From: Hydrangea macrophylla
Lineage: Eukaryota; Streptophyta; Magnoliopsida; Cornales; Hydrangeaceae
NCBI GenBank assembly: GCA_033977485.1
Contig: CM066984.1
Span: 114,817,251-114,881,250 of the forward strand
Length of the DNA stretch: 64,000 bases
Direction: 5' to 3'
Position 1 is the first letter of the stretch. Each line of letters begins with the position of its first letter. Positions 5,364 to 53,350 of this stretch are shown here, in pieces. The notes under the pieces were generated by a model that was given only the letters and a program-made list of their open reading frames with translations, was not told the DNA's origin and did no database searches. A program made the position numbers and the translations under genes.

Positions 5364-5821
5364 ATTAGTGTCTTGAGAGAGCAAGAGAGTGTTGAGAGAA
5401 TTTGAGAGAGACAGTGAGTGAATGAGAGGATTGAGAGACTGATTCATATAAATATAAATCACTGTTGTGGCCTCCAAGCAAGCCACGGAAAACCCACGGT
5501 GTGGTTGAGCTCACGTGCTCCCACACCAAAAAAAACGCGGTATAGTCATGGTATTAAAACAAGACTGGTATTTTACGGTTGAAATAAAAATACAGAAAAT
5601 TATATTAGTGTAGGAAATAAATTCGTAGTTTATATAAAAATATAGAGATTGCTTTTAAAACCATAGAAAGCATTTCTATATTTATGGAAATTATGGTTTG
5701 ACCCCAAATGAATATTATAAAAGGAAATAAAATGATATACTCATTTATAAATGAAAAAGGAATTACAGGGTGTTACACTTTACCCACCTTAATAGAGATT
5801 TTGCCCCAAAATCTGAGCTAA

Positions 5822-7191: not shown

Positions 7192-7215
7192 CTTGATGAA
7201 CCATACTAGAAATTT

Positions 7216-18456: not shown

Positions 18457-18471
18457 AACTCCCACTTGCAC

Positions 18472-24163: not shown

Positions 24164-25663
24164 TGTTGGAAAAACCGGTTTAAGTTCTAAGTTTAAACGC
24201 GCAGCGGAAAAATCAAGTTATAAAACTTAATTGGCATGCCCGGATCTACTACCCATCAACTCTATAGATGCGCACAAGAGGGGACAAGAGTTTATACCTT
24301 AGTGTCTTGAACCCAATTCTGAAATCTTCAACTTCCAGCAGCCTCCACTAGATGGCCTTCACACTTATGACTCCTATGGATGCTCGCAGGAAGGACTAGG
24401 GTTGGTGGGAACCCTAATGGAGAGGATTGGAAGGTTTTGGGAAACCTAAACAGTTTCTGCAGCTTTTACGTATAAAAAACGACGAACCTCTTTTCCAGAA
24501 CGCAGCTGCCCTATTTATAGATTCCCAGAACCGACCTAGACTTCGACCGATCGAAGTGACTTCGATCGATCGACACTTCGATCGATCGAACCATTCTCGA
24601 TCGATCGAACCTGCCATGACTTCAATCGATCGAACATACTTCAATCGATCGAACTTGTCTTGACAGCTTCCTCATTTGCCTTCCCAAGCATCCTAGCGGA
24701 GCTAAGAGTGGGACCTCCTAGGCTCTTTATTGTTGGCTCAGATCAGTTGATTAACTCCCATGACCAAACTCTTTGATCAGCAAATTAATCGACTGATCAG
24801 TTAACGTTTACTCCACTATAAAACGATAACTGAACTCCAACGCAAAAGAACATATCCGAAGCGATAACTAGACTTGTATGTTGTACTAATGTCCCTCTAC
24901 CATCAGCATTCGCAATCATATTCAGGTAGTCGGATAAACAGTTACTGTCAACCTGAATCATGATTACTTCTTATAATCCTTGAGTCCCATTCACCTCTCG
25001 TGATTACCAAACATGTTGATAACTCTTATCAACAAGACTGCAGTACTCAGTAATCGACTTGGTGACATTCTCAAGGGAATGCTTACTCTGAAACAGAGGG
25101 TAGATTCTGTCTTGACAATATATGTTCACAACCCTATGAATATGACATACCCAAGATACCCAGGTGTTGATCTTCTATAGACCTCACTGATTGGTAAGTC
25201 AAAGCAGTCATATCCACAGTCTGTGTTCATAATCGTCTCAAGATTGAGAACATGTACCTTACACAAGTTATGAGTTCCTATCGACTGATTGACAGCCTTG
25301 AGCGTCAATAGGAAACTCAGGTCCGTCAATGCACTATAAGCACTAGCATATTAACTAAGAGTTACACACTAATGATCTGAGATTGATCACTCCATCCAAT
25401 GGTAGTTAATCATGATACAGTGTAAACCTGATGAGATATCCTAGTCCCAACATCCACTGTGACATGTTCTAAGTAACAAAGAATAGCAATTCGTATCTCA
25501 CTTGTATGTATCTCATACATACACGAATTACTTACTATGATACTTAAGGATAACAATCATCTCATGAAAGAAACATACATAACAAAATGTAAAGCTGATA
25601 TCCATATATTAAAATGTCAATGTCTCCTATATAAAGTAATGGTTTGAGGGCACAAACTCAACA
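24164..25663 (-). repeat. Copia 5' LTR (right copy)
   Basis: 1500 bp, the same length as the left LTR, with the same TATA box (24512-24519) and palindrome cluster. The PBS follows it on the minus strand, making it the 5' LTR. The terminal aaactcaaca carries one of the six differences from the left LTR (aaacccaaca). Confidence 0.93.
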
Positions 25664-25668
25664 AAAAG

Positions 25669-33650: not shown

Positions 33651-34388
33651 TTAGCGCAAATTGGTGTTATTTTCCGAGTTGAAATCAAAAGCTTTTGGAG
33701 TTGTAATGTTGGCATAGTCTGGAGTACTTACAAAATTTTCATCCTGTTGATCAAAGTCAAATCCTAGATCAGCCAAGACCATAGGTTCCGCGATGCCACC
33801 ATCACCAACCACGATACTCATATCCTCAATATCATACCCATCGATCATTCGTTCCAACTCCTCCACTGTTAGATCATGATCATCAACACCATCACAAAGA
33901 TGATCATTAGGACTAGAACTCGAATTCCCGGATCTTGAAGAAATTTCATTCAACCGATTCATCACATTGTTTCTTACTTTTTTCATAGCTATCATCTTCT
34001 CTTCTAATTCCTCGAGTGAGTCACTCTCTTGATCAAATTCTTCGTGCTTCCACCAAAAGACGTCTTTTTTCTTTTGTTCGATCTTGAGCTCTTTCTCTAG
34101 TCTTTTCACTTCACTATATAGTGAATCTGCCGATTTTTTGGTTTCATTGCTCACGACAAGTGAGGAACGGGTAAGAAATGCATCGATAACCGTATCAGTT
34201 GATGGATAAGCGAACGTATAAAATTTTTGTATTCCGCTAGGCGCAGATAATATAATAGCCATTTGAGCATCAAAATTCATGCAAAATTCAGCAGCCTTGC
34301 TATATAGACCGTTGCGTCTCTTCAAAAATGTTGTATATTTCTGAACTGGATCTTCTATTTTCTTGAACTCAATTTTCCTCCGACCCAT
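33651..34388 (-). CDS. Type I (M-alpha) MADS-box transcription factor
   Basis: 245 aa from ATG at 34388, intronless as usual for M-alpha genes. The MADS domain is residues 1-60: MGRRKIEFKKIED, TTFLKRRNGLYSKAAEFC and QMAIILSAPSG, then FYTFAYPSTDTVIDAFL, the M-alpha continuation. After it come a heptad-rich stretch (87-150) with the FWW...LEELEEKM motif seen in AGL61/AGL62-like proteins and an acidic, probably disordered tail. The family binds CArG-type DNA as dimers in the nucleus, often in female gametophyte or endosperm. The start codon lies inside the 5-bp TSD (34385-34389) of an 18.6-kb LTR concatemer, so the former 5'UTR now begins at 53019. The frame is otherwise intact. An upstream in-frame ATG in the LTR (34463) could add 25 residues. 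Divergent MADS positions (PVQKY, MNFDAQ) suggest relaxed constraint or fast evolution. Confidence 0.9.
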   Translation of the reverse strand: MGRRKIEFKKIEDPVQKYTTFLKRRNGLYSKAAEFCMNFDAQMAIILSAPSGIQKFYTFAYPSTDTVIDAFLTRSSLVVSNETKKSADSLYSEVKRLEKELKIEQKKKDVFWWKHEEFDQESDSLEELEEKMIAMKKVRNNVMNRLNEISSRSGNSSSSPNDHLCDGVDDHDLTVEELERMIDGYDIEDMSIVVGDGGIAEPMVLADLGFDFDQQDENFVSTPDYANITTPKAFDFNSENNTNLR

Positions 34389-34389
34389 A
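34385..34389. other. Left target-site duplication ccata
   Basis: ccata immediately precedes the TG of LTR1; the identical 5-mer follows the CA of LTR7 at 53019-53023. On the minus strand it reads TATGG and contains the ATG of the MADS gene. Confidence 0.9.
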
Positions 34390-35814
34390 TGATTGCACCT
34401 AAAAAATACATTTTTTAAATCAAAATTGGTAGAGGCCGATTGGATCTTTTTAATCGGACTCATGAGACCGATGGCAAAATTAATGCCCAAGTGGTTACTT
34501 TAAAGGTTGATCGAACTGACCACTATTCACTCGGGCTCATCACCATTTCATCGGGCTTGCTACCGTTGCGCTAGTACTATTACTCACTCGAACTGATCAC
34601 TCTTTAGTCGGGCTGACTAATGCATAAGATCGGACTCATGAGACCGATTGTGTAAATTATTGGCTAAGTGACTGGTTCAAATTCAATCGGACTGGAGGCT
34701 GTATTCGGGCTTGGGCTTAATTCTCTCAGGCTCTTTCATTTAATCAGTGCATTTGTTTGGCAGTCAAAGGGTGGGCCACGTTTCATTTTGCCAAACCTCA
34801 ACAGCCAAAGTGCCAATACAGGGATGATTAGCCACGTGGATGATTACTTTATCAAAAGATTACAGTGGGCCCCTCGTTTTAGTCACCATACATAATTGTA
34901 TCGCCCTTAGCTGTAATGGCCACGTGGAATAACCAATTCGGACTGATACAATTCTTATTGTAATGGCCGATTGGTTAAATTAGGACACATATAATTTGGC
35001 CACCTTAGTAATATATATATATATATATATATATACGTGTGTATATATATAGAGAGTCCATTATGGCAGGATACTAATTCTAAAAGGTCTCCTATTTTGG
35101 TACTACTGATAAGGGTAATTTTCCATATATCATTAAGAGAAGATTTTAAGATATGGAAACATTATCAGAATAGGCAAGATATATTATCAACTTTTGGGAA
35201 GATAATATCAGATTTTGTGGGAGTTATCTTTTACTTGGAGGGTAAGTCAGACGAATGAAGCCACAAGATGGACCAGGTTCAGATTCCAGATATATATGTG
35301 TATATATATTATTGAAGATATAGCAGCTATTATCAGTTTATGGAAATAAACTGGTATTTTTTACCAGATAATGATTCATCAGATTTCCTACCTAATCTAG
35401 AAGACCTCCATGGCCGCTATAAATACAGCAGGCAGGCCAAACTATCAATGCACTCCGCGTCTCTTCGACAAAGCATTCAAACATGCATTCTTAAAGCATT
35501 CTTAGCATTCTTAGTTTTATTTTCTTAGCTTTTCAATTACATCCTTGTAATTTCTTTCTTATTAATTAAATAAAATTTGCTTTTATTTAATTTCTTGTGT
35601 CTTTTCATCACTTGTATGGCTTGTATGCTTCAATACTGCCATAGGACCTTAGGCCAAGGGTACTTTCCTACTTGGTCATCACAATCACCCGATAAAAGTC
35701 AGATTTTCAAACCTTGTGTATCACTCACACAAGTGCTTTAGGAAATTTTGTATTAATTAGTTTGGGTCTACCTCACAAGGCTCTGGCACGCCCGAACAAC
35801 ATTTACAGCAAACA
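34390..35814 (+). repeat. Concatemer LTR1 (1425 bp)
   Basis: Starts TGATTGCACC; all other LTRs start TGTTTGCACC. It ends acagcaaaca. It contains two copies of the imperfect palindrome atcggactcatgagaccgat (34453-34472, 34629-34648), the longest TA microsatellite of the set (about 35010-35034), a TATA box TATAAATA (35418-35425), a cattc-rich stretch after it (35472-35515), and an AATAAA signal (35569-35574). The TATA-to-AATAAA interval is the probable R region. Transcription would run on the plus strand, away from the MADS gene. Confidence 0.92.
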
Positions 35815-37263
35815 ATTTGGCACGCCCGGTGGGACAGCCAAGTGATGAGCCATGCATACACTGAAGCATGGCTATACTTCTACAAGAACCAGATTGGTTG
35901 GCGGAATGAGTCAATACGCCAACTTCGCGAAGAAATCTATCGTCTCTACAATGATGGATATTGGAATGAAACTGGTCATCTTTATAATGAGATAGACCGT
36001 TTTGAGGCCGACATGCGATTTTTTAATCAAGAAATCGGCCACCTCAAAGCTTCGAGTGGAGCTGATGAACCGCCGCCCGAGGGAAATTCGTTCATGTCTC
36101 TAGACGATTTTCTATACGGTGACTGGCGAAAGAATCTACTTTGTGACAACATTCTTCGTGCTCTTGAAGATATGAAGGCGCACTCGAGAGAACAGCAGGC
36201 AAAGCTTAGCCGGTTTGAAGAAGACACGAAAGCAAGCCTGGCAATACTAGAGGCTCAAGGGCAAAAGATCGAACAATTTTTAAAGTCACGACAACGGCCC
36301 GAGAAGGCCGATGTTTCCACTCCAAATCAAGAGACCGATGTCTCTGGTCATCTTGATTCTACGCCGTCCGAGCCGCTCGGGGGGCAAGACGGCAAAAAAT
36401 TAAATAAAGAGCCGAGTGATCTTATATCGGCCATAGAGCCCCTCCTTGATGTTGAAGACGACGAAGCACCCGGGGGGCAAATTCAAGACGAGCCTCAAAA
36501 TTTCATTGAGGCCGAAGAGGAAAGTGATAGGCCGAGTGATCTTGAACTGGCCATAGAACCTCCCGTTGATGAGGAGGGCGATGATGAAGACCCCATTATT
36601 GACAAAGCAATCGGTGATGAACCGCTCGGGGGGCAAGTTTCGCAGAGACCGATTGAAATTAATTCGGTCCATGAAGCTTTTGAAAATATTTCTTTGAGGA
36701 AAATCAGCCTCAAGGAATTATTTAATTTTTTCGGTCTCCTTGTAATGACCGATTATTATTTTTATTTTAAGCTAATCAATTATTTGGTTTGGGTTGATTT
36801 ACATCCACGTTGGCTGTGTGGATGTCACCAAAAATTAAATATTATTTGGTGGTTATTTCTCCAACAATGGTATTATCAAAAGACTGAGAAGGATGCTTGG
36901 GATGAAGATCGGACTGAATTAATTCAGTCAGTAGGCTATTCGGACTCACAAGACCGAAAGCAAGAAATAAATAAAGTAATGCCAGAAGGATGCTTGGGAT
37001 GCTGATCGGACATAGAGGCCGATGGGGTAATTAATTTCAGAAGTGTGTGTAACAGTCAAGTGGTGGAGCTCGATAAAGTAATTACATGTCTCAGTCAAGC
37101 TACAACGTGAGGTGTCAAACGGTCTCTTGGCCAAGCCCGATGTTAGTCCAAAGATCATCGGTCTACATGATGAGCCCGATCGCAGTCTAAAGGTAATCGG
37201 GCTAGATAAACATGGTCATTCAAAATTTCACTTGTTTTTATTTTAAACGGCCAGGGGGGCAAT
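35815..37263 (+). other. Concatemer internal region 1 (PBS, ORF, PPT)
   Basis: 1449 bp. PBS-like tttggcacgcccggtgggac lies at the left edge (the primer tRNA is not assigned). The ORF is 35845-37005 and the purine tract aggggggcaa lies at 37253-37262, abutting LTR2. Three near copies of that tract, cggggggcaa, occur inside the ORF at 36378, 36471 and 36627. The last 250 bp are non-coding and rich in ccgat/cgggct motifs shared with the LTR. Confidence 0.88.
35845..37005 (+). CDS. Unrecognised 386-aa protein of the concatemer, unit 1
   Basis: ATG at 35845 (a GTG lies just before it). I do not recognise the family. Residues 18-70 and 95-150 are charged and helical-looking, probably coiled coil. 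Residues 155-275 are acidic and repetitive, with SEPLGGQ, APGGQ and DEPLGGQ and the paired units PSDLISAIEPLLDVEDDE and PSDLELAIEPPVDEEGDDE. Residues 288-345 are strongly hydrophobic and aromatic (ELFNFFGLLV, FYFKLINYLVW, NIIWWLFLQQWYY), possibly membrane-associated. No zinc knuckle, protease or polymerase motif. It occupies the usual gag position after the PBS. Unit 1 has Leu at residue 235, where units 2-6 have Pro. Confidence 0.6.
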   Translation: MSHAYTEAWLYFYKNQIGWRNESIRQLREEIYRLYNDGYWNETGHLYNEIDRFEADMRFFNQEIGHLKASSGADEPPPEGNSFMSLDDFLYGDWRKNLLCDNILRALEDMKAHSREQQAKLSRFEEDTKASLAILEAQGQKIEQFLKSRQRPEKADVSTPNQETDVSGHLDSTPSEPLGGQDGKKLNKEPSDLISAIEPLLDVEDDEAPGGQIQDEPQNFIEAEEESDRPSDLELAIEPPVDEEGDDEDPIIDKAIGDEPLGGQVSQRPIEINSVHEAFENISLRKISLKELFNFFGLLVMTDYYFYFKLINYLVWVDLHPRWLCGCHQKLNIIWWLFLQQWYYQKTEKDAWDEDRTELIQSVGYSDSQDRKQEINKVMPEGCLGC

Positions 37264-38678
37264 TGTTTGCACCTAAAAAATACATTTTTTAAATCAAAAT
37301 TGGTAGAGGCCGATTGGATCTTTTTAATCGGACTCATGAGACCGATGGCAAAATTAATGCCCAAGTGGTTACTTTAAAGGTTGATCGAACTGACCACTAT
37401 TCACTCGGGCTCATCACCATTTCATCGGGCTTGCTACCGTTGCGCTAGTACTATTACTCACTCGAACTGATCACTCTTTAGTCGGGCTGACTAATGCATA
37501 AGATCGGACTCATGAGACCGATTGTGTAAATTATTGGCTAAGTGACTGGTTCAAATTCAATCGGACTGGAGGCTGTATTCGGGCTTGGGCTTAATTCTCT
37601 CAGGCTCTTTCATTTAATCAGTGCATTTGTTTGGCAGTCAAAGGGTGGGCCACGTTTCATTTTGCCAAACCTCAACAGCCAAAGTGCCAATACAGGGATG
37701 ATTAGCCACGTGGATGATTACTTTATCAAAAGATTACAGTGGGCCCCTCGTTTTAGTCACCATACATAATTGTATCGCCCTTAGCTGTAATGGCCACGTG
37801 GAATAACCAATTCGGACTGATACAATTCTTATTGTAATGGCCGATTGGTTAAATTAGGACACATATAATTTGGCCACCTTAGTAATATATATATATATAC
37901 GTGTGTATATATATAGAGAGTCCATTATGGCAGGATACTAATTCTAAAAGGTCTCCTATTTTGGTACTACTGATAAGGGTAATTTTCCATATATCATTAA
38001 GAGAAGATTTTAAGATATGGAAACATTATCAGAATAGGCAAGATATATTATCAACTTTTGGGAAGATAATATCAGATTTTGTGGGAGTTATCTTTTACTT
38101 GGAGGGTAAGTCAGACGAATGAAGCCACAAGATGGACCAGGTTCAGATTCCAGATATATATGTGTATATATATTATTGAAGATATAGCAGCTATTATCAG
38201 TTTATGGAAATAAACTGGTATTTTTTACCAGATAATGATTCATCAGATTTCCTACCTAATCTAGAAGACCTCCATGGCCGCTATAAATACAGCAGGCAGG
38301 CCAAACTATCAATGCACTCCGCGTCTCTTCGACAAAGCATTCAAACATGCATTCTTAAAGCATTCTTAGCATTCTTAGTTTTATTTTCTTAGCTTTTCAA
38401 TTACATCCTTGTAATTTCTTTCTTATTAATTAAATAAAATTTGCTTTTATTTAATTTCTTGTGTCTTTTCATCACTTGTATGGCTTGTATGCTTCAATAC
38501 TGCCATAGGACCTTAGGCCAAGGGTACTTTCCTACTTGGTCATCACAATCACCCGATAAAAGTCAGATTTTCAAACCTTGTGTATCACTCACACAAGTGC
38601 TTTAGGAAATTTTGTATTAATTAGTTTGGGTCTACCTCACAAGGCTCTGGCACGCCCGAACAACATTTACAGCAAACA
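37264..38678 (+). repeat. Concatemer LTR2 (1415 bp)
   Basis: Shortest LTR, because its TA tract (about 37886-37900) is the shortest. TATA box, AATAAA and both 20-bp palindromes are as in LTR1. Confidence 0.92.
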
Positions 38679-38708
38679 ATTTGGCACGCCCGGTGGGACA
38701 GCCAAGTG

Positions 38709-39869
38709 ATGAGCCATGCATACACTGAAGCATGGCTATACTTCTACAAGAACCAGATTGGTTGGCGGAATGAGTCAATACGCCAACTTCGCGAAGAAAT
38801 CTATCGTCTCTACAATGATGGATATTGGAATGAAACTGGTCATCTTTATAATGAGATAGACCGTTTTGAGGCCGACATGCGATTTTTTAATCAAGAAATC
38901 GGCCACCTCAAAGCTTCGAGTGGAGCTGATGAACCGCCGCCCGAGGGAAATTCGTTCATGTCTCTAGACGATTTTCTATACGGTGACTGGCGAAAGAATC
39001 TACTTTGTGACAACATTCTTCGTGCTCTTGAAGATATGAAGGCGCACTCGAGAGAACAGCAGGCAAAGCTTAGCCGGTTTGAAGAAGACACGAAAGCAAG
39101 CCTGGCAATACTAGAGGCTCAAGGGCAAAAGATCGAACAATTTTTAAAGTCACGACAACGGCCCGAGAAGGCCGATGTTTCCACTCCAAATCAAGAGACC
39201 GATGTCTCTGGTCATCTTGATTCTACGCCGTCCGAGCCGCTCGGGGGGCAAGACGGCAAAAAATTAAATAAAGAGCCGAGTGATCTTATATCGGCCATAG
39301 AGCCCCTCCTTGATGTTGAAGACGACGAAGCACCCGGGGGGCAAATTCAAGACGAGCCTCAAAATTTCATTGAGGCCGAAGAGGAAAGTGATAGGCCGAG
39401 TGATCTTGAACCGGCCATAGAACCTCCCGTTGATGAGGAGGGCGATGATGAAGACCCCATTATTGACAAAGCAATCGGTGATGAACCGCTCGGGGGGCAA
39501 GTTTCGCAGAGACCGATTGAAATTAATTCGGTCCATGAAGCTTTTGAAAATATTTCTTTGAGGAAAATCAGCCTCAAGGAATTATTTAATTTTTTCGGTC
39601 TCCTTGTAATGACCGATTATTATTTTTATTTTAAGCTAATCAATTATTTGGTTTGGGTTGATTTACATCCACGTTGGCTGTGTGGATGTCACCAAAAATT
39701 AAATATTATTTGGTGGTTATTTCTCCAACAATGGTATTATCAAAAGACTGAGAAGGATGCTTGGGATGAAGATCGGACTGAATTAATTCAGTCAGTAGGC
39801 TATTCGGACTCACAAGACCGAAAGCAAGAAATAAATAAAGTAATGCCAGAAGGATGCTTGGGATGCTGA
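38709..39869 (+). CDS. Unrecognised 386-aa protein, unit 2
   Basis: Same protein as at 35845-37005 with Pro235. It lies in internal region 2 (38679-40127, 1449 bp). Confidence 0.58.
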   Translation: MSHAYTEAWLYFYKNQIGWRNESIRQLREEIYRLYNDGYWNETGHLYNEIDRFEADMRFFNQEIGHLKASSGADEPPPEGNSFMSLDDFLYGDWRKNLLCDNILRALEDMKAHSREQQAKLSRFEEDTKASLAILEAQGQKIEQFLKSRQRPEKADVSTPNQETDVSGHLDSTPSEPLGGQDGKKLNKEPSDLISAIEPLLDVEDDEAPGGQIQDEPQNFIEAEEESDRPSDLEPAIEPPVDEEGDDEDPIIDKAIGDEPLGGQVSQRPIEINSVHEAFENISLRKISLKELFNFFGLLVMTDYYFYFKLINYLVWVDLHPRWLCGCHQKLNIIWWLFLQQWYYQKTEKDAWDEDRTELIQSVGYSDSQDRKQEINKVMPEGCLGC

Positions 39870-40127
39870 TCGGACATAGAGGCCGATGGGGTAATTAATT
39901 TCAGAAGTGTGTGTAACAGTCAAGTGGTGGAGCTCGATAAAGTAATTACATGTCTCAGTCAAGCTACAACGTGAGGTGTCAAACGGTCTCTTGGCCAAGC
40001 CCGATGTTAGTCCAAAGATCATCGGTCTACATGATGAGCCCGATCGCAGTCTAAAGGTAATCGGGCTAGATAAACATGGTCATTCAAAATTTCACTTGTT
40101 TTTATTTTAAACGGCCAGGGGGGCAAT

Positions 40128-41546
40128 TGTTTGCACCTAAAAAATACATTTTTTAAATCAAAATTGGTAGAGGCCGATTGGATCTTTTTAATCGGACTCA
40201 TGAGACCGATGGCAAAATTAATGCCCAAGTGGTTACTTTAAAGGTTGATCGAACTGACCACTATTCACTCGGGCTCATCACCATTTCATCGGGCTTGCTA
40301 CCGTTGCGCTAGTACTATTACTCACTCGAACTGATCACTCTTTAGTCGGGCTGACTAATGCATAAGATCGGACTCATGAGACCGATTGTGTAAATTATTG
40401 GCTAAGTGACTGGTTCAAATTCAATCGGACTGGAGGCTGTATTCGGGCTTGGGCTTAATTCTCTCAGGCTCTTTCATTTAATCAGTGCATTTGTTTGGCA
40501 GTCAAAGGGTGGGCCACGTTTCATTTTGCCAAACCTCAACAGCCAAAGTGCCAATACAGGGATGATTAGCCACGTGGATGATTACTTTATCAAAAGATTA
40601 CAGTGGGCCCCTCGTTTTAGTCACCATACATAATTGTATCGCCCTTAGCTGTAATGGCCACGTGGAATAACCAATTCGGACTGATACAATTCTTATTGTA
40701 ATGGCCGATTGGTTAAATTAGGACACATATAATTTGGCCACCTTAGTAATATATATATATATATATACGTGTGTATATATATAGAGAGTCCATTATGGCA
40801 GGATACTAATTCTAAAAGGTCTCCTATTTTGGTACTACTGATAAGGGTAATTTTCCATATATCATTAAGAGAAGATTTTAAGATATGGAAACATTATCAG
40901 AATAGGCAAGATATATTATCAACTTTTGGGAAGATAATATCAGATTTTGTGGGAGTTATCTTTTACTTGGAGGGTAAGTCAGACGAATGAAGCCACAAGA
41001 TGGACCAGGTTCAGATTCCAGATATATATGTGTATATATATTATTGAAGATATAGCAGCTATTATCAGTTTATGGAAATAAACTGGTATTTTTTACCAGA
41101 TAATGATTCATCAGATTTCCTACCTAATCTAGAAGACCTCCATGGCCGCTATAAATACAGCAGGCAGGCCAAACTATCAATGCACTCCGCGTCTCTTCGA
41201 CAAAGCATTCAAACATGCATTCTTAAAGCATTCTTAGCATTCTTAGTTTTATTTTCTTAGCTTTTCAATTACATCCTTGTAATTTCTTTCTTATTAATTA
41301 AATAAAATTTGCTTTTATTTAATTTCTTGTGTCTTTTCATCACTTGTATGGCTTGTATGCTTCAATACTGCCATAGGACCTTAGGCCAAGGGTACTTTCC
41401 TACTTGGTCATCACAATCACCCGATAAAAGTCAGATTTTCAAACCTTGTGTATCACTCACACAAGTGCTTTAGGAAATTTTGTATTAATTAGTTTGGGTC
41501 TACCTCACAAGGCTCTGGCACGCCCGAACAACATTTACAGCAAACA
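40128..41546 (+). repeat. Concatemer LTR3 (1419 bp)
   Basis: TGTTTGCACC to acagcaaaca; differs from neighbours in TA-tract length. Confidence 0.92.
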
Positions 41547-41576
41547 ATTTGGCACGCCCGGTGGGACAGCCAAGTG

Positions 41577-42737
41577 ATGAGCCATGCATACACTGAAGCA
41601 TGGCTATACTTCTACAAGAACCAGATTGGTTGGCGGAATGAGTCAATACGCCAACTTCGCGAAGAAATCTATCGTCTCTACAATGATGGATATTGGAATG
41701 AAACTGGTCATCTTTATAATGAGATAGACCGTTTTGAGGCCGACATGCTATTTTTTAATCAAGAAATCGGCCACCTCAAAGCTTCGAGTGGAGCTGATGA
41801 ACCGCCGCCCGAGGGAAATTCGTTCATGTCTCTAGACGATTTTCTATACGGTGACTGGCGAAAGAATCTACTTTGTGACAACATTCTTCGTGCTCTTGAA
41901 GATATGAAGGCGCACTCGAGAGAACAGCAGGCAAAGCTTAGCCGGTTTGAAGAAGACACGAAAGCAAGCCTGGCAATACTAGAGGCTCAAGGGCAAAAGA
42001 TCGAACAATTTTTAAAGTCACGACAACGGCCCGAGAAGGCCGATGTTTCCACTCCAAATCAAGAGACCGATGTCTCTGGTCATCTTGATTCTACGCCGTC
42101 CGAGCCGCTCGGGGGGCAAGACGGCAAAAAATTAAATAAAGAGCCGAGTGATCTTATATCGGCCATAGAGCCCCTCCTTGATGTTGAAGACGACGAAGCA
42201 CCCGGGGGGCAAATTCAAGACGAGCCTCAAAATTTCATTGAGGCCGAAGAGGAAAGTGATAGGCCGAGTGATCTTGAACCGGCCATAGAACCTCCCGTTG
42301 ATGAGGAGGGCGATGATGAAGACCCCATTATTGACAAAGCAATCGGTGATGAACCGCTCGGGGGGCAAGTTTCGCAGAGACCGATTGAAATTAATTCGGT
42401 CCATGAAGCTTTTGAAAATATTTCTTTGAGGAAAATCAGCCTCAAGGAATTATTTAATTTTTTCGGTCTCCTTGTAATGACCGATTATTATTTTTATTTT
42501 AAGCTAATCAATTATTTGGTTTGGGTTGATTTACATCCACGTTGGCTGTGTGGATGTCACCAAAAATTAAATATTATTTGGTGGTTATTTCTCCAACAAT
42601 GGTATTATCAAAAGACTGAGAAGGATGCTTGGGATGAAGATCGGACTGAATTAATTCAGTCAGTAGGCTATTCGGACTCACAAGACCGAAAGCAAGAAAT
42701 AAATAAAGTAATGCCAGAAGGATGCTTGGGATGCTGA
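41577..42737 (+). CDS. Unrecognised 386-aa protein, unit 3
   Basis: As in unit 2, but residue 58 is Leu instead of Arg (gacatgctattt at about 41743-41754). It lies in internal region 3 (41547-42995, 1449 bp). Confidence 0.58.
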   Translation: MSHAYTEAWLYFYKNQIGWRNESIRQLREEIYRLYNDGYWNETGHLYNEIDRFEADMLFFNQEIGHLKASSGADEPPPEGNSFMSLDDFLYGDWRKNLLCDNILRALEDMKAHSREQQAKLSRFEEDTKASLAILEAQGQKIEQFLKSRQRPEKADVSTPNQETDVSGHLDSTPSEPLGGQDGKKLNKEPSDLISAIEPLLDVEDDEAPGGQIQDEPQNFIEAEEESDRPSDLEPAIEPPVDEEGDDEDPIIDKAIGDEPLGGQVSQRPIEINSVHEAFENISLRKISLKELFNFFGLLVMTDYYFYFKLINYLVWVDLHPRWLCGCHQKLNIIWWLFLQQWYYQKTEKDAWDEDRTELIQSVGYSDSQDRKQEINKVMPEGCLGC

Positions 42738-42995
42738 TCGGACATAGAGGCCGATGGGGTAATTAATTTCAGAAGTGTGTGTAACAGTCAAGTGGTGGAG
42801 CTCGATAAAGTAATTACATGTCTCAGTCAAGCTACAACGTGAGGTGTCAAACGGTCTCTTGGCCAAGCCCGATGTTAGTCCAAAGATCATCGGTCTACAT
42901 GATGAGCCCGATCGCAGTCTAAAGGTAATCGGGCTAGATAAACATGGTCATTCAAAATTTCACTTGTTTTTATTTTAAACGGCCAGGGGGGCAAT

Positions 42996-44412
42996 TGTTT
43001 GCACCTAAAAAATACATTTTTTAAATCAAAATTGGTAGAGGCCGATTGGATCTTTTTAATCGGACTCATGAGACCGATGGCAAAATTAATGCCCAAGTGG
43101 TTACTTTAAAGGTTGATCGAACTGACCACTATTCACTCGGGCTCATCACCATTTCATCGGGCTTGCTACCGTTGCGCTAGTACTATTACTCACTCGAACT
43201 GATCACTCTTTAGTCGGGCTGACTAATGCATAAGATCGGACTCATGAGACCGATTGTGTAAATTATTGGCTAAGTGACTGGTTCAAATTCAATCGGACTG
43301 GAGGCTGTATTCGGGCTTGGGCTTAATTCTCTCAGGCTCTTTCATTTAATCAGTGCATTTGTTTGGCAGTCAAAGGGTGGGCCACGTTTCATTTTGCCAA
43401 ACCTCAACAGCCAAAGTGCCAATACAGGGATGATTAGCCACGTGGATGATTACTTTATCAAAAGATTACAGTGGGCCCCTCGTTTTAGTCACCATACATA
43501 ATTGTATCGCCCTTAGCTGTAATGGCCACGTGGAATAACCAATTCGGACTGATACAATTCTTATTGTAATGGCCGATTGGTTAAATTAGGACACATATAA
43601 TTTGGCCACCTTAGTAATATATATATATATATACGTGTGTATATATATAGAGAGTCCATTATGGCAGGATACTAATTCTAAAAGGTCTCCTATTTTGGTA
43701 CTACTGATAAGGGTAATTTTCCATATATCATTAAGAGAAGATTTTAAGATATGGAAACATTATCAGAATAGGCAAGATATATTATCAACTTTTGGGAAGA
43801 TAATATCAGATTTTGTGGGAGTTATCTTTTACTTGGAGGGTAAGTCAGACGAATGAAGCCACAAGATGGACCAGGTTCAGATTCCAGATATATATGTGTA
43901 TATATATTATTGAAGATATAGCAGCTATTATCAGTTTATGGAAATAAACTGGTATTTTTTACCAGATAATGATTCATCAGATTTCCTACCTAATCTAGAA
44001 GACCTCCATGGCCGCTATAAATACAGCAGGCAGGCCAAACTATCAATGCACTCCGCGTCTCTTCGACAAAGCATTCAAACATGCATTCTTAAAGCATTCT
44101 TAGCATTCTTAGTTTTATTTTCTTAGCTTTTCAATTACATCCTTGTAATTTCTTTCTTATTAATTAAATAAAATTTGCTTTTATTTAATTTCTTGTGTCT
44201 TTTCATCACTTGTATGGCTTGTATGCTTCAATACTGCCATAGGACCTTAGGCCAAGGGTACTTTCCTACTTGGTCATCACAATCACCCGATAAAAGTCAG
44301 ATTTTCAAACCTTGTGTATCACTCACACAAGTGCTTTAGGAAATTTTGTATTAATTAGTTTGGGTCTACCTCACAAGGCTCTGGCACGCCCGAACAACAT
44401 TTACAGCAAACA
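42996..44412 (+). repeat. Concatemer LTR4 (1417 bp)
   Basis: TGTTTGCACC to acagcaaaca; TA tract one repeat shorter than LTR3. Confidence 0.92.
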
Positions 44413-44442
44413 ATTTGGCACGCCCGGTGGGACAGCCAAGTG

Positions 44443-45603
44443 ATGAGCCATGCATACACTGAAGCATGGCTATACTTCTACAAGAACCAGATTGGTTGGC
44501 GGAATGAGTCAATACGCCAACTTCGCGAAGAAATCTATCGTCTCTACAATGATGGATATTGGAATGAAACTGGTCATCTTTATAATGAGATAGACCGTTT
44601 TGAGGCCGACATGCGATTTTTTAATCAAGAAATCGGCCACCTCAAAGCTTCGAGTGGAGCTGATGAACCGCCGCCCGAGGGAAATTCGTTCATGTCTCTA
44701 GACGATTTTCTATACGGTGACTGGCGAAAGAATCTACTTTGTGACAACATTCTTCGTGCTCTTGAAGATATGAAGGCGCACTCGAGAGAACAGCAGGCAA
44801 AGCTTAGCCGGTTTGAAGAAGACACGAAAGCAAGCCTGGCAATACTAGAGGCTCAAGGGCAAAAGATCGAACAATTTTTAAAGTCACGACAACGGCCCGA
44901 GAAGGCCGATGTTTCCACTCCAAATCAAGAGACCGATGTCTCTGGTCATCTTGATTCTACGCCGTCCGAGCCGCTCGGGGGGCAAGACGGCAAAAAATTA
45001 AATAAAGAGCCGAGTGATCTTATATCGGCCATAGAGCCCCTCCTTGATGTTGAAGACGACGAAGCACCCGGGGGGCAAATTCAAGACGAGCCTCAAAATT
45101 TCATTGAGGCCGAAGAGGAAAGTGATAGGCCGAGTGATCTTGAACCGGCCATAGAACCTCCCGTTGATGAGGAGGGCGATGATGAAGACCCCATTATTGA
45201 CAAAGCAATCGGTGATGAACCGCTCGGGGGGCAAGTTTCGCAGAGACCGATTGAAATTAATTCGGTCCATGAAGCTTTTGAAAATATTTCTTTGAGGAAA
45301 ATCAGCCTCAAGGAATTATTTAATTTTTTCGGTCTCCTTGTAATGACCGATTATTATTTTTATTTTAAGCTAATCAATTATTTGGTTTGGGTTGATTTAC
45401 ATCCACGTTGGCTGTGTGGATGTCACCAAAAATTAAATATTATTTGGTGGTTATTTCTCCAACAATGGTATTATCAAAAGACTGAGAAGGATGCTTGGGA
45501 TGAAGATCGGACTGAATTAATTCAGTCAGTAGGCTATTCGGACTCACAAGACCGAAAGCAAGAAATAAATAAAGTAATGCCAGAAGGATGCTTGGGATGC
45601 TGA
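44443..45603 (+). CDS. Unrecognised 386-aa protein, unit 4
   Basis: Protein identical to unit 2. Internal region 4 is 44413-45861 (1449 bp). Confidence 0.58.
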   Translation: MSHAYTEAWLYFYKNQIGWRNESIRQLREEIYRLYNDGYWNETGHLYNEIDRFEADMRFFNQEIGHLKASSGADEPPPEGNSFMSLDDFLYGDWRKNLLCDNILRALEDMKAHSREQQAKLSRFEEDTKASLAILEAQGQKIEQFLKSRQRPEKADVSTPNQETDVSGHLDSTPSEPLGGQDGKKLNKEPSDLISAIEPLLDVEDDEAPGGQIQDEPQNFIEAEEESDRPSDLEPAIEPPVDEEGDDEDPIIDKAIGDEPLGGQVSQRPIEINSVHEAFENISLRKISLKELFNFFGLLVMTDYYFYFKLINYLVWVDLHPRWLCGCHQKLNIIWWLFLQQWYYQKTEKDAWDEDRTELIQSVGYSDSQDRKQEINKVMPEGCLGC

Positions 45604-45861
45604 TCGGACATAGAGGCCGATGGGGTAATTAATTTCAGAAGTGTGTGTAACAGTCAAGTGGTGGAGCTCGATAAAGTAATTACATGTCTCAGTCAAGCTA
45701 CAACGTGAGGTGTCAAACGGTCTCTTGGCCAAGCCCGATGTTAGTCCAAAGATCATCGGTCTACATGATGAGCCCGATCGCAGTCTAAAGGTAATCGGGC
45801 TAGATAAACATGGTCATTCAAAATTTCACTTGTTTTTATTTTAAACGGCCAGGGGGGCAAT

Positions 45862-47280
45862 TGTTTGCACCTAAAAAATACATTTTTTAAATCAAAATTG
45901 GTAGAGGCCGATTGGATCTTTTTAATCGGACTCATGAGACCGATGGCAAAATTAATGCCCAAGTGGTTACTTTAAAGGTTGATCGAACTGACCACTATTC
46001 ACTCGGGCTCATCACCATTTCATCGGGCTTGCTACCGTTGCGCTAGTACTATTACTCACTCGAACTGATCACTCTTTAGTCGGGCTGACTAATGCATAAG
46101 ATCGGACTCATGAGACCGATTGTGTAAATTATTGGCTAAGTGACTGGTTCAAATTCAATCGGACTGGAGGCTGTATTCGGGCTTGGGCTTAATTCTCTCA
46201 GGCTCTTTCATTTAATCAGTGCATTTGTTTGGCAGTCAAAGGGTGGGCCACGTTTCATTTTGCCAAACCTCAACAGCCAAAGTGCCAATACAGGGATGAT
46301 TAGCCACGTGGATGATTACTTTATCAAAAGATTACAGTGGGCCCCTCGTTTTAGTCACCATACATAATTGTATCGCCCTTAGCTGTAATGGCCACGTGGA
46401 ATAACCAATTCGGACTGATACAATTCTTATTGTAATGGCCGATTGGTTAAATTAGGACACATATAATTTGGCCACCTTAGTAATATATATATATATATAT
46501 ACGTGTGTATATATATAGAGAGTCCATTATGGCAGGATACTAATTCTAAAAGGTCTCCTATTTTGGTACTACTGATAAGGGTAATTTTCCATATATCATT
46601 AAGAGAAGATTTTAAGATATGGAAACATTATCAGAATAGGCAAGATATATTATCAACTTTTGGGAAGATAATATCAGATTTTGTGGGAGTTATCTTTTAC
46701 TTGGAGGGTAAGTCAGACGAATGAAGCCACAAGATGGACCAGGTTCAGATTCCAGATATATATGTGTATATATATTATTGAAGATATAGCAGCTATTATC
46801 AGTTTATGGAAATAAACTGGTATTTTTTACCAGATAATGATTCATCAGATTTCCTACCTAATCTAGAAGACCTCCATGGCCGCTATAAATACAGCAGGCA
46901 GGCCAAACTATCAATGCACTCCGCGTCTCTTCGACAAAGCATTCAAACATGCATTCTTAAAGCATTCTTAGCATTCTTAGTTTTATTTTCTTAGCTTTTC
47001 AATTACATCCTTGTAATTTCTTTCTTATTAATTAAATAAAATTTGCTTTTATTTAATTTCTTGTGTCTTTTCATCACTTGTATGGCTTGTATGCTTCAAT
47101 ACTGCCATAGGACCTTAGGCCAAGGGTACTTTCCTACTTGGTCATCACAATCACCCGATAAAAGTCAGATTTTCAAACCTTGTGTATCACTCACACAAGT
47201 GCTTTAGGAAATTTTGTATTAATTAGTTTGGGTCTACCTCACAAGGCTCTGGCACGCCCGAACAACATTTACAGCAAACA
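45862..47280 (+). repeat. Concatemer LTR5 (1419 bp)
   Basis: TGTTTGCACC to acagcaaaca; same length as LTR3 and LTR6. Confidence 0.92.
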
Positions 47281-47310
47281 ATTTGGCACGCCCGGTGGGA
47301 CAGCCAAGTG

Positions 47311-48471
47311 ATGAGCCATGCATACACTGAAGCATGGCTATACTTCTACAAGAACCAGATTGGTTGGCGGAATGAGTCAATACGCCAACTTCGCGAAGAA
47401 ATCTATCGTCTCTACAATGATGGATATTGGAATGAAACTGGTCATCTTTATAATGAGATAGACCGTTTTGAGGCCGACATGCGATTTTTTAATCAAGAAA
47501 TCGGCCACCTCAAAGCTTCGAGTGGAGCTGATGAACCGCCGCCCGAGGGAAATTCGTTCATGTCTCTAGACGATTTTCTATACGGTGACTGGCGAAAGAA
47601 TCTACTTTGTGACAACATTCTTCGTGCTCTTGAAGATATGAAGGCGCACTCGAGAGAACAGCAGGCAAAGCTTAGCCGGTTTGAAGAAGACACGAAAGCA
47701 AGCCTGGCAATACTAGAGGCTCAAGGGCAAAAGATCGAACAATTTTTAAAGTCACGACAACGGCCCGAGAAGGCCGATGTTTCCACTCCAAATCAAGAGA
47801 CCGATGTCTCTGGTCATCTTGATTCTACGCCGTCCGAGCCGCTCGGGGGGCAAGACGGCAAAAAATTAAATAAAGAGCCGAGTGATCTTATATCGGCCAT
47901 AGAGCCCCTCCTTGATGTTGAAGACGACGAAGCACCCGGGGGGCAAATTCAAGACGAGCCTCAAAATTTCATTGAGGCCGAAGAGGAAAGTGATAGGCCG
48001 AGTGATCTTGAACCGGCCATAGAACCTCCCGTTGATGAGGAGGGCGATGATGAAGACCCCATTATTGACAAAGCAATCGGTGATGAACCGCTCGGGGGGC
48101 AAGTTTCGCAGAGACCGATTGAAATTAATTCGGTCCATGAAGCTTTTGAAAATATTTCTTTGAGGAAAATCAGCCTCAAGGAATTATTTAATTTTTTCGG
48201 TCTCCTTGTAATGACCGATTATTATTTTTATTTTAAGCTAATCAATTATTTGGTTTGGGTTGATTTACATCCACGTTGGCTGTGTGGATGTCACCAAAAA
48301 TTAAATATTATTTGGTGGTTATTTCTCCAACAATGGTATTATCAAAAGACTGAGAAGGATGCTTGGGATGAAGATCGGACTGAATTAATTCAGTCAGTAG
48401 GCTATTCGGACTCACAAGACCGAAAGCAAGAAATAAATAAAGTAATGCCAGAAGGATGCTTGGGATGCTGA
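47311..48471 (+). CDS. Unrecognised 386-aa protein, unit 5
   Basis: Protein identical to unit 2. Internal region 5 is 47281-48729; it has a private A-to-G change in its non-coding part (ctacagcgtgagg near 48566). Confidence 0.58.
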   Translation: MSHAYTEAWLYFYKNQIGWRNESIRQLREEIYRLYNDGYWNETGHLYNEIDRFEADMRFFNQEIGHLKASSGADEPPPEGNSFMSLDDFLYGDWRKNLLCDNILRALEDMKAHSREQQAKLSRFEEDTKASLAILEAQGQKIEQFLKSRQRPEKADVSTPNQETDVSGHLDSTPSEPLGGQDGKKLNKEPSDLISAIEPLLDVEDDEAPGGQIQDEPQNFIEAEEESDRPSDLEPAIEPPVDEEGDDEDPIIDKAIGDEPLGGQVSQRPIEINSVHEAFENISLRKISLKELFNFFGLLVMTDYYFYFKLINYLVWVDLHPRWLCGCHQKLNIIWWLFLQQWYYQKTEKDAWDEDRTELIQSVGYSDSQDRKQEINKVMPEGCLGC

Positions 48472-48729
48472 TCGGACATAGAGGCCGATGGGGTAATTAA
48501 TTTCAGAAGTGTGTGTAACAGTCAAGTGGTGGAGCTCGATAAAGTAATTACATGTCTCAGTCAAGCTACAGCGTGAGGTGTCAAACGGTCTCTTGGCCAA
48601 GCCCGATGTTAGTCCAAAGATCATCGGTCTACATGATGAGCCCGATCGCAGTCTAAAGGTAATCGGGCTAGATAAACATGGTCATTCAAAATTTCACTTG
48701 TTTTTATTTTAAACGGCCAGGGGGGCAAT

Positions 48730-50148
48730 TGTTTGCACCTAAAAAATACATTTTTTAAATCAAAATTGGTAGAGGCCGATTGGATCTTTTTAATCGGACT
48801 CATGAGACCGATGGCAAAATTAATGCCCAAGTGGTTACTTTAAAGGTTGATCGAACTGACCACTATTCACTCGGGCTCATCACCATTTCATCGGGCTTGC
48901 TACCGTTGCGCTAGTACTATTACTCACTCGAACTGATCACTCTTTAGTCGGGCTGACTAATGCATAAGATCGGACTCATGAGACCGATTGTGTAAATTAT
49001 TGGCTAAGTGACTGGTTCAAATTCAATCGGACTGGAGGCTGTATTCGGGCTTGGGCTTAATTCTCTCAGGCTCTTTCATTTAATCAGTGCATTTGTTTGG
49101 CAGTCAAAGGGTGGGCCACGTTTCATTTTGCCAAACCTCAACAGCCAAAGTGCCAATACAGGGATGATTAGCCACGTGGATGATTACTTTATCAAAAGAT
49201 TACAGTGGGCCCCTCGTTTTAGTCACCATACATAATTGTATCGCCCTTAGCTGTAATGGCCACGTGGAATAACCAATTCGGACTGATACAATTCTTATTG
49301 TAATGGCCGATTGGTTAAATTAGGACACATATAATTTGGCCACCTTAGTAATATATATATATATATATACGTGTGTATATATATAGAGAGTCCATTATGG
49401 CAGGATACTAATTCTAAAAGGTCTCCTATTTTGGTACTACTGATAAGGGTAATTTTCCATATATCATTAAGAGAAGATTTTAAGATATGGAAACATTATC
49501 AGAATAGGCAAGATATATTATCAACTTTTGGGAAGATAATATCAGATTTTGTGGGAGTTATCTTTTACTTGGAGGGTAAGTCAGACGAATGAAGCCACAA
49601 GATGGACCAGGTTCAGATTCCAGATATATATGTGTATATATATTATTGAAGATATAGCAGCTATTATCAGTTTATGGAAATAAACTGGTATTTTTTACCA
49701 GATAATGATTCATCAGATTTCCTACCTAATCTAGAAGACCTCCATGGCCGCTATAAATACAGCAGGCAGGCCAAACTATCAATGCACTCCGCGTCTCTTC
49801 GACAAAGCATTCAAACATGCATTCTTAAAGCATTCTTAGCATTCTTAGTTTTATTTTCTTAGCTTTTCAATTACATCCTTGTAATTTCTTTCTTATTAAT
49901 TAAATAAAATTTGCTTTTATTTAATTTCTTGTGTCTTTTCATCACTTGTATGGCTTGTATGCTTCAATACTGCCATAGGACCTTAGGCCAAGGGTACTTT
50001 CCTACTTGGTCATCACAATCACCCGATAAAAGTCAGATTTTCAAACCTTGTGTATCACTCACACAAGTGCTTTAGGAAATTTTGTATTAATTAGTTTGGG
50101 TCTACCTCACAAGGCTCTGGCACGCCCGAACAACATTTACAGCAAACA
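48730..50148 (+). repeat. Concatemer LTR6 (1419 bp)
   Basis: TGTTTGCACC to acagcaaaca; no private substitution noticed. Confidence 0.92.
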
Positions 50149-50178
50149 ATTTGGCACGCCCGGTGGGACAGCCAAGTG

Positions 50179-51339
50179 ATGAGCCATGCATACACTGAAG
50201 CATGGCTATACTTCTACAAGAACCAGATTGGTTGGCGGAATGAGTCAATACGCCAACTTCGCGAAGAAATCTATCGTCTCTACAATGATGGATATTGGAA
50301 TGAAACTGGTCATCTTTATAATGAGATAGACCGTTTTGAGGCCGACATGCGATTTTTTAATCAAGAAATCGGCCACCTCAAAGCTTCGAGTGGAGCTGAT
50401 GAACCGCCGCCCGAGGGAAATTCGTTCATGTCTCTAGACGATTTTCTATACGGTGACTGGCGAAAGAATCTACTTTGTGACAACATTCTTCGTGCTCTTG
50501 AAGATATGAAGGCGCACTCGAGAGAACAGCAGGCAAAGCTTAGCCGGTTTGAAGAAGACACGAAAGCAAGCCTGGCAATACTAGAGGCTCAAGGGCAAAA
50601 GATCGAACAATTTTTAAAGTCACGACAACGGCCCGAGAAGGCCGATGTTTCCACTCCAAATCAAGAGACCGATGTCTCTGGTCATCTTGATTCTACGCCG
50701 TCCGAGCCGCTCGGGGGGCAAGACGGCAAAAAATTAAATAAAGAGCCGAGTGATCTTATATCGGCCATAGAGCCCCTCCTTGATGTTGAAGACGACGAAG
50801 CACCCGGGGGGCAAATTCAAGACGAGCCTCAAAATTTCATTGAGGCCGAAGAGGAAAGTGATAGGCCGAGTGATCTTGAACCGGCCATAGAACCTCCCGT
50901 TGATGAGGAGGGCGATGATGAAGACCCCATTATTGACAAAGCAATCGGTGATGAACCGCTCGGGGGGCAAGTTTCGCAGAGACCGATTGAAATTAATTCG
51001 GTCCATGAAGCTTTTGAAAATATTTCTTTGAGGAAAATCAGCCTCAAGGAATTATTTAATTTTTTCGGTCTCCTTGTAATGACCGATTATTATTTTTATT
51101 TTAAGCTAATCAATTATTTGGTTTGGGTTGATTTACATCCACGTTGGCTGTGTGGATGTCACCAAAAATTAAATATTATTTGGTGGTTATTTCTCCAACA
51201 ATGGTATTATCAAAAGACTGAGAAGGATGCTTGGGATGAAGATCGGACTGAATTAATTCAGTCAGTAGGCTATTCGGACTCACAAGACCGAAAGCAAGAA
51301 ATAAATAAAGTAATGCCAGAAGGATGCTTGGGATGCTGA
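50179..51339 (+). CDS. Unrecognised 386-aa protein, unit 6
   Basis: Protein identical to unit 2. Internal region 6 is 50149-51597 (1449 bp). Confidence 0.58.
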   Translation: MSHAYTEAWLYFYKNQIGWRNESIRQLREEIYRLYNDGYWNETGHLYNEIDRFEADMRFFNQEIGHLKASSGADEPPPEGNSFMSLDDFLYGDWRKNLLCDNILRALEDMKAHSREQQAKLSRFEEDTKASLAILEAQGQKIEQFLKSRQRPEKADVSTPNQETDVSGHLDSTPSEPLGGQDGKKLNKEPSDLISAIEPLLDVEDDEAPGGQIQDEPQNFIEAEEESDRPSDLEPAIEPPVDEEGDDEDPIIDKAIGDEPLGGQVSQRPIEINSVHEAFENISLRKISLKELFNFFGLLVMTDYYFYFKLINYLVWVDLHPRWLCGCHQKLNIIWWLFLQQWYYQKTEKDAWDEDRTELIQSVGYSDSQDRKQEINKVMPEGCLGC

Positions 51340-51597
51340 TCGGACATAGAGGCCGATGGGGTAATTAATTTCAGAAGTGTGTGTAACAGTCAAGTGGTGG
51401 AGCTCGATAAAGTAATTACATGTCTCAGTCAAGCTACAACGTGAGGTGTCAAACGGTCTCTTGGCCAAGCCCGATGTTAGTCCAAAGATCATCGGTCTAC
51501 ATGATGAGCCCGATCGCAGTCTAAAGGTAATCGGGCTAGATAAACATGGTCATTCAAAATTTCACTTGTTTTTATTTTAAACGGCCAGGGGGGCAAT

Positions 51598-53018
51598 TGT
51601 TTGCACCTAAAAAATACATTTTTTAAATCAAAATTGGTAGAGGCCGATTGGATCTTTTTAATCGGACTCATGAGACCGATGGCAAAATTAATGCCCAAGT
51701 GGTTACTTTAAAGGTTGATCGAACTGACCACTATTCACTCGGGCTCATCACCATTTCATCGGGCTTGCTACCGTTGCGCTAGTACTATTACTCACTCGAA
51801 CTGATCACTCTTTAGTCGGGCTGACTAATGCATAAGATCGGACTCATGAGACCGATTGTGTAAATTATTGGCTAAGTGACTGGTTCAAATTCAATCGGAC
51901 TGGAGGTTGTATTCGGGCTTGGGCTTAATTCTCTCAGGCTCTTTCATTTAATCAGTGCATTTGTTTGGCAGTCAAAGGGTGGGCCACGTTTCATTTTGCC
52001 AAACCTCAACAGCCAAAGTGCCAATACAGGGATGATTAGCCACGTGGATGATTACTTTATCAAAAGATTACAGTGGGCCCCTCGTTTTAGTCACCATACA
52101 TAATTGTATCGCCCTTAGCTGTAATGGCCACGTGGAATAACCAATTCGGACTGATACAATTCTTATTGTAATGGCCGATTGGTTAAATTAGGACACATAT
52201 AATTTGGCCACCTTAGTAATATATATATATATATATACGTGTGTATATATATATAGAGTCCATTATGGCAGGATACTAATTCTAAAAGGTCTCCTATTTT
52301 GGTACTACTGATAAGGGTAATTTTCCATATATCATTAAGAGAAGATTTTAAGATATGGAAACATTATCAGAATAGGCAAGATATATTATCAACTTTTGGG
52401 AAGATAATATCAGATTTTGTGGGAGTTATCTTTTACTTGGAGGGTAAGTCAGACGAATGAAGCCACAAGATGGACCAGGTTCAGATTCCAGATATATATA
52501 TGTGTATATATATTATTGAAGATATAGCAGCTATTATCAGTTTATGGAAATAAACTGGTATTTTTTACCAGATAATGATTCATCAGATTTCCTACCTAAT
52601 CTAGAAGACCTCCATGGCCGCTATAAATACAGCAGGCAGGCCAAACTATCAATGCACTCCGCGTCTCTTCGACAAAGCATTCAAACATGCATTCTTAAAG
52701 CATTCTTAGCATTCTTAGTTTTATTTTCTTAGCTTTTCAATTACATCCTTGTAATTTCTTTCTTATTAATTAAATAAAATTTGCTTTTATTTAATTTCTT
52801 GTGTCTTTTCATCACTTGTATGGCTTGTATGCTTCAATACTGCCATAGGACCTTAGGCCAAGGGTACTTTCCTACTTGGTCATCACAATCACCCGATAAA
52901 AGTCAGATTTTCAAACCTTGTGTATCACTCACACAAGTGCTTTAGGAAATTTTGTATTAATTAGTTTGGGTCTACCTCACAAGGCTCTGGCACGCCCGAA
53001 CAACATTTACAGCAAACA
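51598..53018 (+). repeat. Concatemer LTR7 (1421 bp), right terminus
   Basis: Private C-to-T change (ggaggttgtattcgg near 51902) and small changes in the two TA/GA microsatellites (52242-52256, 52493-52512). It ends acagcaaaca followed by the TSD ccata (53019-53023), not by a PBS. Confidence 0.92.
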
Positions 53019-53350
53019 CCATATTGTAAAAACACAAGAAATTTCAAGAACATTAGAAAAAAATAATTGTTGCATGAGATTTGCTTGTTAGATAATCTAT
53101 TTATGATAGAGATTCGCGGGTGGTCACAAAAAGGAAAAAGGAAAAAGGAAAAACATTATGGCATCAGTAAGATGTGTTGGTTTAATCTTATGATTCTTAT
53201 CCATTAATCGATTTGATGACTAAGCATCAAAGCTTTGTAAGACCACCTATTTAGGCTTTAGTCACACACACACTACACACTTTCAAGGTGTTAGTACTAC
53301 CATTTTAATATTTTGCTGCTAACTTAAATTGGACAAAAACTCTCTTTTTG
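53019..53350 (-). promoter_or_regulatory. Displaced 5' flank of the MADS-box gene
   Basis: If the concatemer is removed at its TSD, this sequence directly abuts the MADS coding region. On the minus strand it reads ...gtttttacaatATGG into GTCGG. It should therefore contain the gene's 5'UTR and proximal promoter. A transcript starting here now meets ATG (in the TSD copy) followed by LTR sequence and a stop after 16 codons. No TATA box is obvious close to the ATG. Confidence 0.7.

Follow-up and report, generated by a model that had tools for sequence, protein, structure and literature searches.

The window analysed here is a 64,000-nucleotide stretch of Hydrangea macrophylla DNA (C3:114817251-114881250), and the genome searched with it was the 2.22-Gb assembly of 19 contigs. 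At positions 34385..53023 the window carries a long terminal repeat (LTR) retrotransposon in tandem form, with seven LTRs, all on the + strand, alternating with six internal regions. The LTRs lie at 34390..35814 (LTR1, 1425 bp), 37264..38678 (LTR2, 1415 bp), 40128..41546 (LTR3, 1419 bp), 42996..44412 (LTR4, 1417 bp), 45862..47280 (LTR5, 1419 bp), 48730..50148 (LTR6, 1419 bp) and 51598..53018 (LTR7, 1421 bp), and their termini are TG...CA. The internal regions (35815..37263, 38679..40127, 41547..42995, 44413..45861, 47281..48729 and 50149..51597, all +) each measure exactly 1449 bp. The 5-bp target-site duplication (TSD) CCATA is found only once at each outer end, the left copy at 34385..34389 matching the right copy at 53019..53023. 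Every inner junction joins an LTR directly to a primer-binding site (PBS) or a polypurine tract (PPT) directly to an LTR. Alternating internal regions with shared LTRs, an LTR at both ends and one TSD thus make this a tandem LTR retrotransposon, and the structure is far beyond chance. The original prediction, made from the letters of the window, had placed the seven LTRs at these positions in the same orientation, with six 1449-bp internal regions and CCATA confined to the outer ends, and the alignment bears out each of these statements.

Each unit repeats the same signals on the + strand. The PBS region, TTTGGCACGCCCGGTGGGAC, lies at 35816..35835 and is present in six exact copies in the window, the further ones at 38680, 41548, 44414, 47282 and 50150, while the PPT region, GGCCAGGGGGGCAA, lies at 37249..37262 and recurs before every later LTR (40113, 42981, 45847, 48715 and 51583). 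An open reading frame (ORF) of 386 aa at 35845..37005 is open in all six internal regions, with starts at 38709, 41577, 44443, 47311 and 50179 in the other five units. A Pfam search of this ORF gave no match, hence no gag-pol domain was found in it. With TG...CA termini, PBS, PPT (both named by position and repetition), a 5-bp TSD and an ORF without gag-pol domains, the element is a non-autonomous LTR retrotransposon.

The units of the window are nearly identical. LTR2 to LTR6 contain no single-nucleotide polymorphism (SNP) and differ solely in the length of an (AT)n tract; this tract is longest in LTR1, where A at position 3 is the one private SNP, and LTR7 carries two such SNPs (T310 and T663) and a 2-bp insertion. 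Three single-copy SNPs were found in the internal regions, namely T at column 734 in region 1, T at column 203 in region 3 and G at column 1291 in region 5. When LTR length and internal SNPs are combined, all six LTR+internal units are distinct, which argues against duplication by the assembler. Such near-identity, together with a six-unit count read from the assembly sequence, is what an assembly expansion of a single element would give, but the units can be told apart and nine of the ten other arrays described below carry unit-specific variants that assembler copying could not create. We therefore consider an assembly expansion scarcely credible.

The array starts at a MADS-box ORF. A 245-aa ORF on the - strand (33651..34388) matches the Pfam SRF-TF domain (E=2.7e-11), and its ATG falls inside the left TSD. 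When the two flanks were joined at one CCATA (288 left bases including the TSD and 111 right bases), the joined sequence was found end to end and with no insert at five places on C18 (35.547-35.606 Mb, 80-88% identity). These uninterrupted relatives indicate that the array occupies a formerly empty site, as one insertion into an intact MADS-box locus. Together with the structure, they uphold the proposal of the original prediction that the array is an LTR-sharing concatemer from a single insertion. Nested or independent insertions are ruled out, as LTR and PBS, or PPT and LTR, abut directly at the inner junctions; moreover, the window units are each other's closest copies among those scored. 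Judged by the sequence, the array now separates the predicted MADS-box ORF from what lies upstream of it in the uninterrupted relatives. The clustering of the five relatives at 35.55-35.61 Mb also raises the possibility that the MADS-box locus in the window is a dispersed duplicate.

Eleven arrays of the family were read base by base, namely the window array (6 units), C8 (8 units), C4a (4), C4b (3), C4c (3), C4d (4), C5 (2), C6 (2), C13 (2), C18 (4) and C1 (3). Their LTRs measure 1.3-1.9 kb and their internal regions 1.35-1.83 kb, and many carry the ORF. In all eleven, neighbouring units share an LTR. Nine of them have a perfect outer TSD; in C4d four of five bases match (CTTGG/ATTGG), and C1 has a changed right junction, at which ACAT alone is readable of GACAT. 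The ten arrays besides the window differ in unit length, and nine have unit-specific variants in both LTRs and internal regions, the variants of C13 being two LTR SNPs only. An intact single TSD, which had been called unusual for such an array, is thus the common state here. It is to be expected as well, because exchange between LTRs leaves the outer ends untouched. In addition, the C1 array sits in a 16.7-kb tandem segmental duplication (L013-L016, C1:17097001-17137000), whose copies are about 99.8% identical over 12.4 kb.

One insertion followed by stepwise unequal LTR-LTR exchange is the best supported origin for the family, and we hold it to be probable there and by extension in the window. 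A single copy of the element (LTR about 1.42 kb, internal region 1.45 kb) would have inserted at the start codon of the MADS-box ORF, creating one 5-bp TSD. A downstream LTR would then misalign with an upstream LTR on the partner chromosome, presumably the sister chromatid or the homologue, and crossing-over would add whole LTR+internal units step by step. Each exchange would keep both outer LTRs and the TSD, and would make a new inner LTR with its 5' part from the downstream neighbour and its 3' part from the upstream one.

This order of parts was the prediction tested, namely that a new inner LTR should be downstream-like in 5' and upstream-like in 3'. Before the test, neighbouring segments that carried the same SNPs were counted as one, and 15 of the 42 segments hold no order information. 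Two inner LTRs, LTR4 of C4d and LTR2 of C18, showed the predicted order at p~1e-4, and two further segments showed it weakly. The reverse order was significant in none of 27 segments, though most of these had little signal in either direction, and the internal regions gave no overall directional signal. The breakpoint intervals of the three clearest hybrid LTRs overlap (C4c 784-973, C4d 679-959 and C18 932-965, in LTR alignment columns), which possibly marks a preferred exchange region; LTR lengths vary between arrays. In the window, the inner LTRs agree with LTR7 at position 3 and with LTR1 at positions 310 and 663, as predicted, and the three LTR SNPs are all confined to the two outermost of the seven LTRs (p=0.023).

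The units of a single array are also of unequal age. Between internal regions 1 and 2 of C18 there are 14 differences, compared with 27-43 for the remaining pairs, and 10 of 12 two-against-two sites group {1,2} against {3,4}; hence one unit arose much later than the others. LTR1, LTR3, LTR4 and LTR5 of C18 are about equidistant (38-43 differences), from which it follows that three units were present near the time of insertion. The inner LTRs of C1 are similar to its LTR1, and its last LTR is set apart by 15 private SNPs and a 79-bp indel. C8 contains variants common to non-adjacent units. The patterns in C18, C1 and C8 thus require growth or exchange after insertion.

The original prediction had left two routes side by side, stepwise exchange and integration of a ready-made concatemer. 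The hybrid LTRs and unequal unit ages favour the first, and the second has become the less supported one. In the latter case, a concatemer, for example cDNA of an array read-through transcript or a product of template switching, would have integrated once. Multi-unit transcripts of the Cassandra element have been reported (PMC7215508), and unit divergence is close to outer-LTR divergence in the basal trimer of C18, in C8 and in C4a, as a concatemer arriving whole would have it. The directional hybrid LTRs of C4d and C18 and the nested unit ages of C18 and C1 nevertheless need later exchange, and so we regard this route as unlikely.

Several observations limit the case for stepwise exchange or weigh against it, and were taken into account. 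The outer LTRs of the window differ at 3 of 1419 sites, and the array is too young and uniform to prove stepwise recombination by itself, so that the mechanism is carried over to it from the family. Sites out of the predicted order occur in C4a, C8, C4b, C1 and the other LTRs of C18 and C4c, and the sign count, together with Z recalculated without the two strongest arrays, slightly lowered our confidence. The outer LTRs of C6 have no SNP between them (one 6-bp indel), while its inner LTR is divergent with 4 SNPs, all C/T, and its internal regions differ at 7 SNPs, 5 of them transitions. Arrival of C6 as a dimer that already had its inner differences, as if they were template-borne, would be consistent with this pattern, which is clear in one of the eleven arrays only. 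C5 leans the same way, with more divergence inside than between its outer LTRs. An outside source for the odd second internal region of C6, which a ready-made concatemer should have, was sought among 40 scored candidates, and none was above 93%, or 92% at full length. The inner LTRs of C4b hold six common variants absent from its outer LTRs; a possible reading is that these variants arose by mutation in a dimer, in its middle LTR, with duplication following later. Lastly, LTR1 of C4d (L042-L043) has 26 private SNPs versus 4 in the last LTR (LTR5). At 14 of these 26 sites LTR1 has T for C or A for G; its divergence is perhaps methylation-driven or of different origin.

Foreign variants in an inner LTR, as in C6, could also be accounted for by integrase-independent recombination of cDNA or a circle into the LTR of a resident element, a route described for yeast LTR elements (PMC11899658), which would likewise keep the outer TSD and shared LTRs. 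In the window array and in C6, the units resemble one another far more than they do any other scored copy, so a foreign donor is unlikely there, and this route does not predict a directional break between neighbours of one array, as seen in C4d and C18. We consider it very improbable. Both main routes may also operate within the family, some arrays (C6, the basal trimer of C18) arriving as multi-unit copies by way of read-through transcripts and then growing by LTR-LTR exchange. This combination is doubtful on the present evidence; if true, the tandem form itself would be a mobile form of the element. Stepwise exchange after one insertion remains the reading we prefer.

Tandem arrangement recurs within the family. 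A 39-base PBS pattern had 806 genome matches at up to 3 mismatches, and a sister PBS pattern had 228 exact matches. From the first 100 matches listed for each pattern, 199 were clustered by strand and spacing into 161 loci; C9:43449958 was omitted, as it lies beyond the stretch covered by both lists. Among these listed matches, 18 of the 161 loci are tandem (at least 2 units), the largest with 8 units. The two clusters on C1 are halves of one duplicated locus, and the merged count is 17/160 (Fisher p=2.7e-4). A list of PPT-LTR junctions (100 of 404 matches listed), which overlaps many loci of the PBS lists, gave 12 tandem loci of 79. Further clusters known from the listings alone, outside the arrays read, lie for example on C14, C17, C10 and at C5:31.7 Mb. 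Two other repeats taken from elsewhere in the window served as controls. Clustering was found at 1 of 99 loci for a copia family classed by Pfam (100 of 5031 matches listed) and at 2 of 97 loci for a family left unclassified, since the only sign of its class was an integrase match below threshold in an adjacent ORF (100 of 1721 matches listed: 17 exact, 83 with one mismatch). Compared with the combined 3/196 among the matches listed, the PBS and PPT-LTR lists gave Fisher p values of 1.4e-4 and 3.4e-5, respectively. A wider 18.5-kb limit adds one copia pair, whose 17.3-kb distance is no multiple of the unit (p=5.6e-4). The units of the controls are longer (spacing 7.1-7.3 kb), and a short unit or large LTR share may therefore explain the excess, not the family itself; short units, of which the LTR makes up about half, are a plausible reason for tandem-proneness. 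The control clusters are three copies at 7292-bp spacing at C18:113097255-113111839 (unclassified family) and pairs at C1:21813267-21820401 (7134 bp, unclassified) and C1:112912740-112919980 (7240 bp, copia). Exact LTR starts numbered 1053 and those preceded by a PPT 404, that is 2.6 per PPT junction, not 2; an excess of solo LTRs was not used as evidence, as this ratio fits decayed PPTs as well as solo LTRs.

It had been suggested that other genome copies be searched and their units counted, and this gives at least 18 tandem loci among the 161 listed. A six-unit array, regarded as unusual, is not unique, given the 8-unit array of the same family on C8 and published arrays with 7 and 13 LTRs (PMC4528315, PMC7215508). 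The further idea that the array is a snapshot of satellite birth found no support. The six units of the window are bounded by a TSD, all arrays read end in a TSD or TSD remnant, and the largest cluster among the matches listed has 8 units.

The ORF appears to have mattered during the spread of the family. Among nine ORF copies, one per array and each at least 347 aa, the ratio of nonsynonymous to synonymous substitution rates fell within 0.32-0.71 for each of the 36 pairs. Such values suggest that the predicted protein was under selection, though a set picked for long ORFs leans towards constraint. The ORF is not open everywhere. It reaches just 117 and 205 aa in the first two internal regions of C4c and C4d, is 273-324 aa long in some units of C4b, C6, C18 and C1, and has 148 and 292 aa in two single copies of the family. 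One relative, L031, has the same PBS, short LTR stretches in common with the family and a Retrotrans_gag match. The window family would be gypsy-like solely by the PBS it shares with this gag-bearing relative. The gag fragment of L031, behind the same PBS and with a distantly similar LTR, makes it a candidate relative of the autonomous partner. With LTRs of 1415-1425 bp and an internal region of 1449 bp, the element is not a terminal-repeat retrotransposon in miniature (TRIM), in which these measure a few hundred bases at most.

Tandem LTR elements as a kind are known, and the mechanistic evidence from sister arrays is what is added here. Plant tandem LTR retrotransposons with single TSDs have been established by Morales-Diaz et al. 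(2025, PMC11899658), who report them as common in plants and state that their data could not tell whether the tandems arose at insertion, as a complex insertion, or later by recombination. The family described here shares with them the LTR-internal-LTR-internal-LTR order, shared LTRs, a single 5-bp TSD and recurrence within a genome; a mostly young age is a further likeness, and in rice and Arabidopsis those tandems are gypsy-biased (PMC11899658). In contrast, the two loci detailed there are two-unit and 28/28 curated rice tandems have retrotransposon protein domains (PMC11899658), whereas the present family reaches 6 and 8 units and its ORF lacks a Pfam match. The Wukong TRIM of maize forms arrays of up to seven LTRs, with 15 of 89 intact elements multi-LTR, and its authors suggest unequal crossing-over (PMC4528315); its LTRs are 230 bp and its internal region 72 bp, far shorter than those of the arrays read here. 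Cassandra also forms alternating LTR/internal arrays, with up to 13 LTRs by polymerase chain reaction, and both routes are discussed for it (PMC7215508). Unlike the window family, it is a short 5S-bearing TRIM, and the available part of that paper held no unit-by-unit order test that we found. The HERV-K HML-2 locus 7p22.1 comprises, at a single site, three LTRs with two internal regions and is polymorphic with a single-unit form, but it is an animal provirus of just two units (PMC11807958). The satellites of Vondrak et al. are likewise tandem arrays built from retrotransposon sequence, but they expand short subrepeats of the 3' untranslated region (PMC7004042), whereas the window family repeats whole LTR+internal units and these stay few. 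A literature search by titles and abstract openings recognised no earlier signed hybrid-LTR test. A single genome with numerous arrays of differing age, combined with a signed inner-LTR test, makes the mechanism readable from sequence, and the hybrid LTRs bear on the question of recombination versus complex insertion left by the 2025 survey (PMC11899658). The control-backed comparison also provides a case in which one family is tandem several times as often as two other families of its genome.

The window further contains a copia element within 3459-27127, with a Retrotran_gag_2 match and LTRs at 16954-18458 and 24161-25665 that are 99.5% identical. It is inserted in an older repeat; a second copy of that repeat, with no interruption, lies at 3459-8061.

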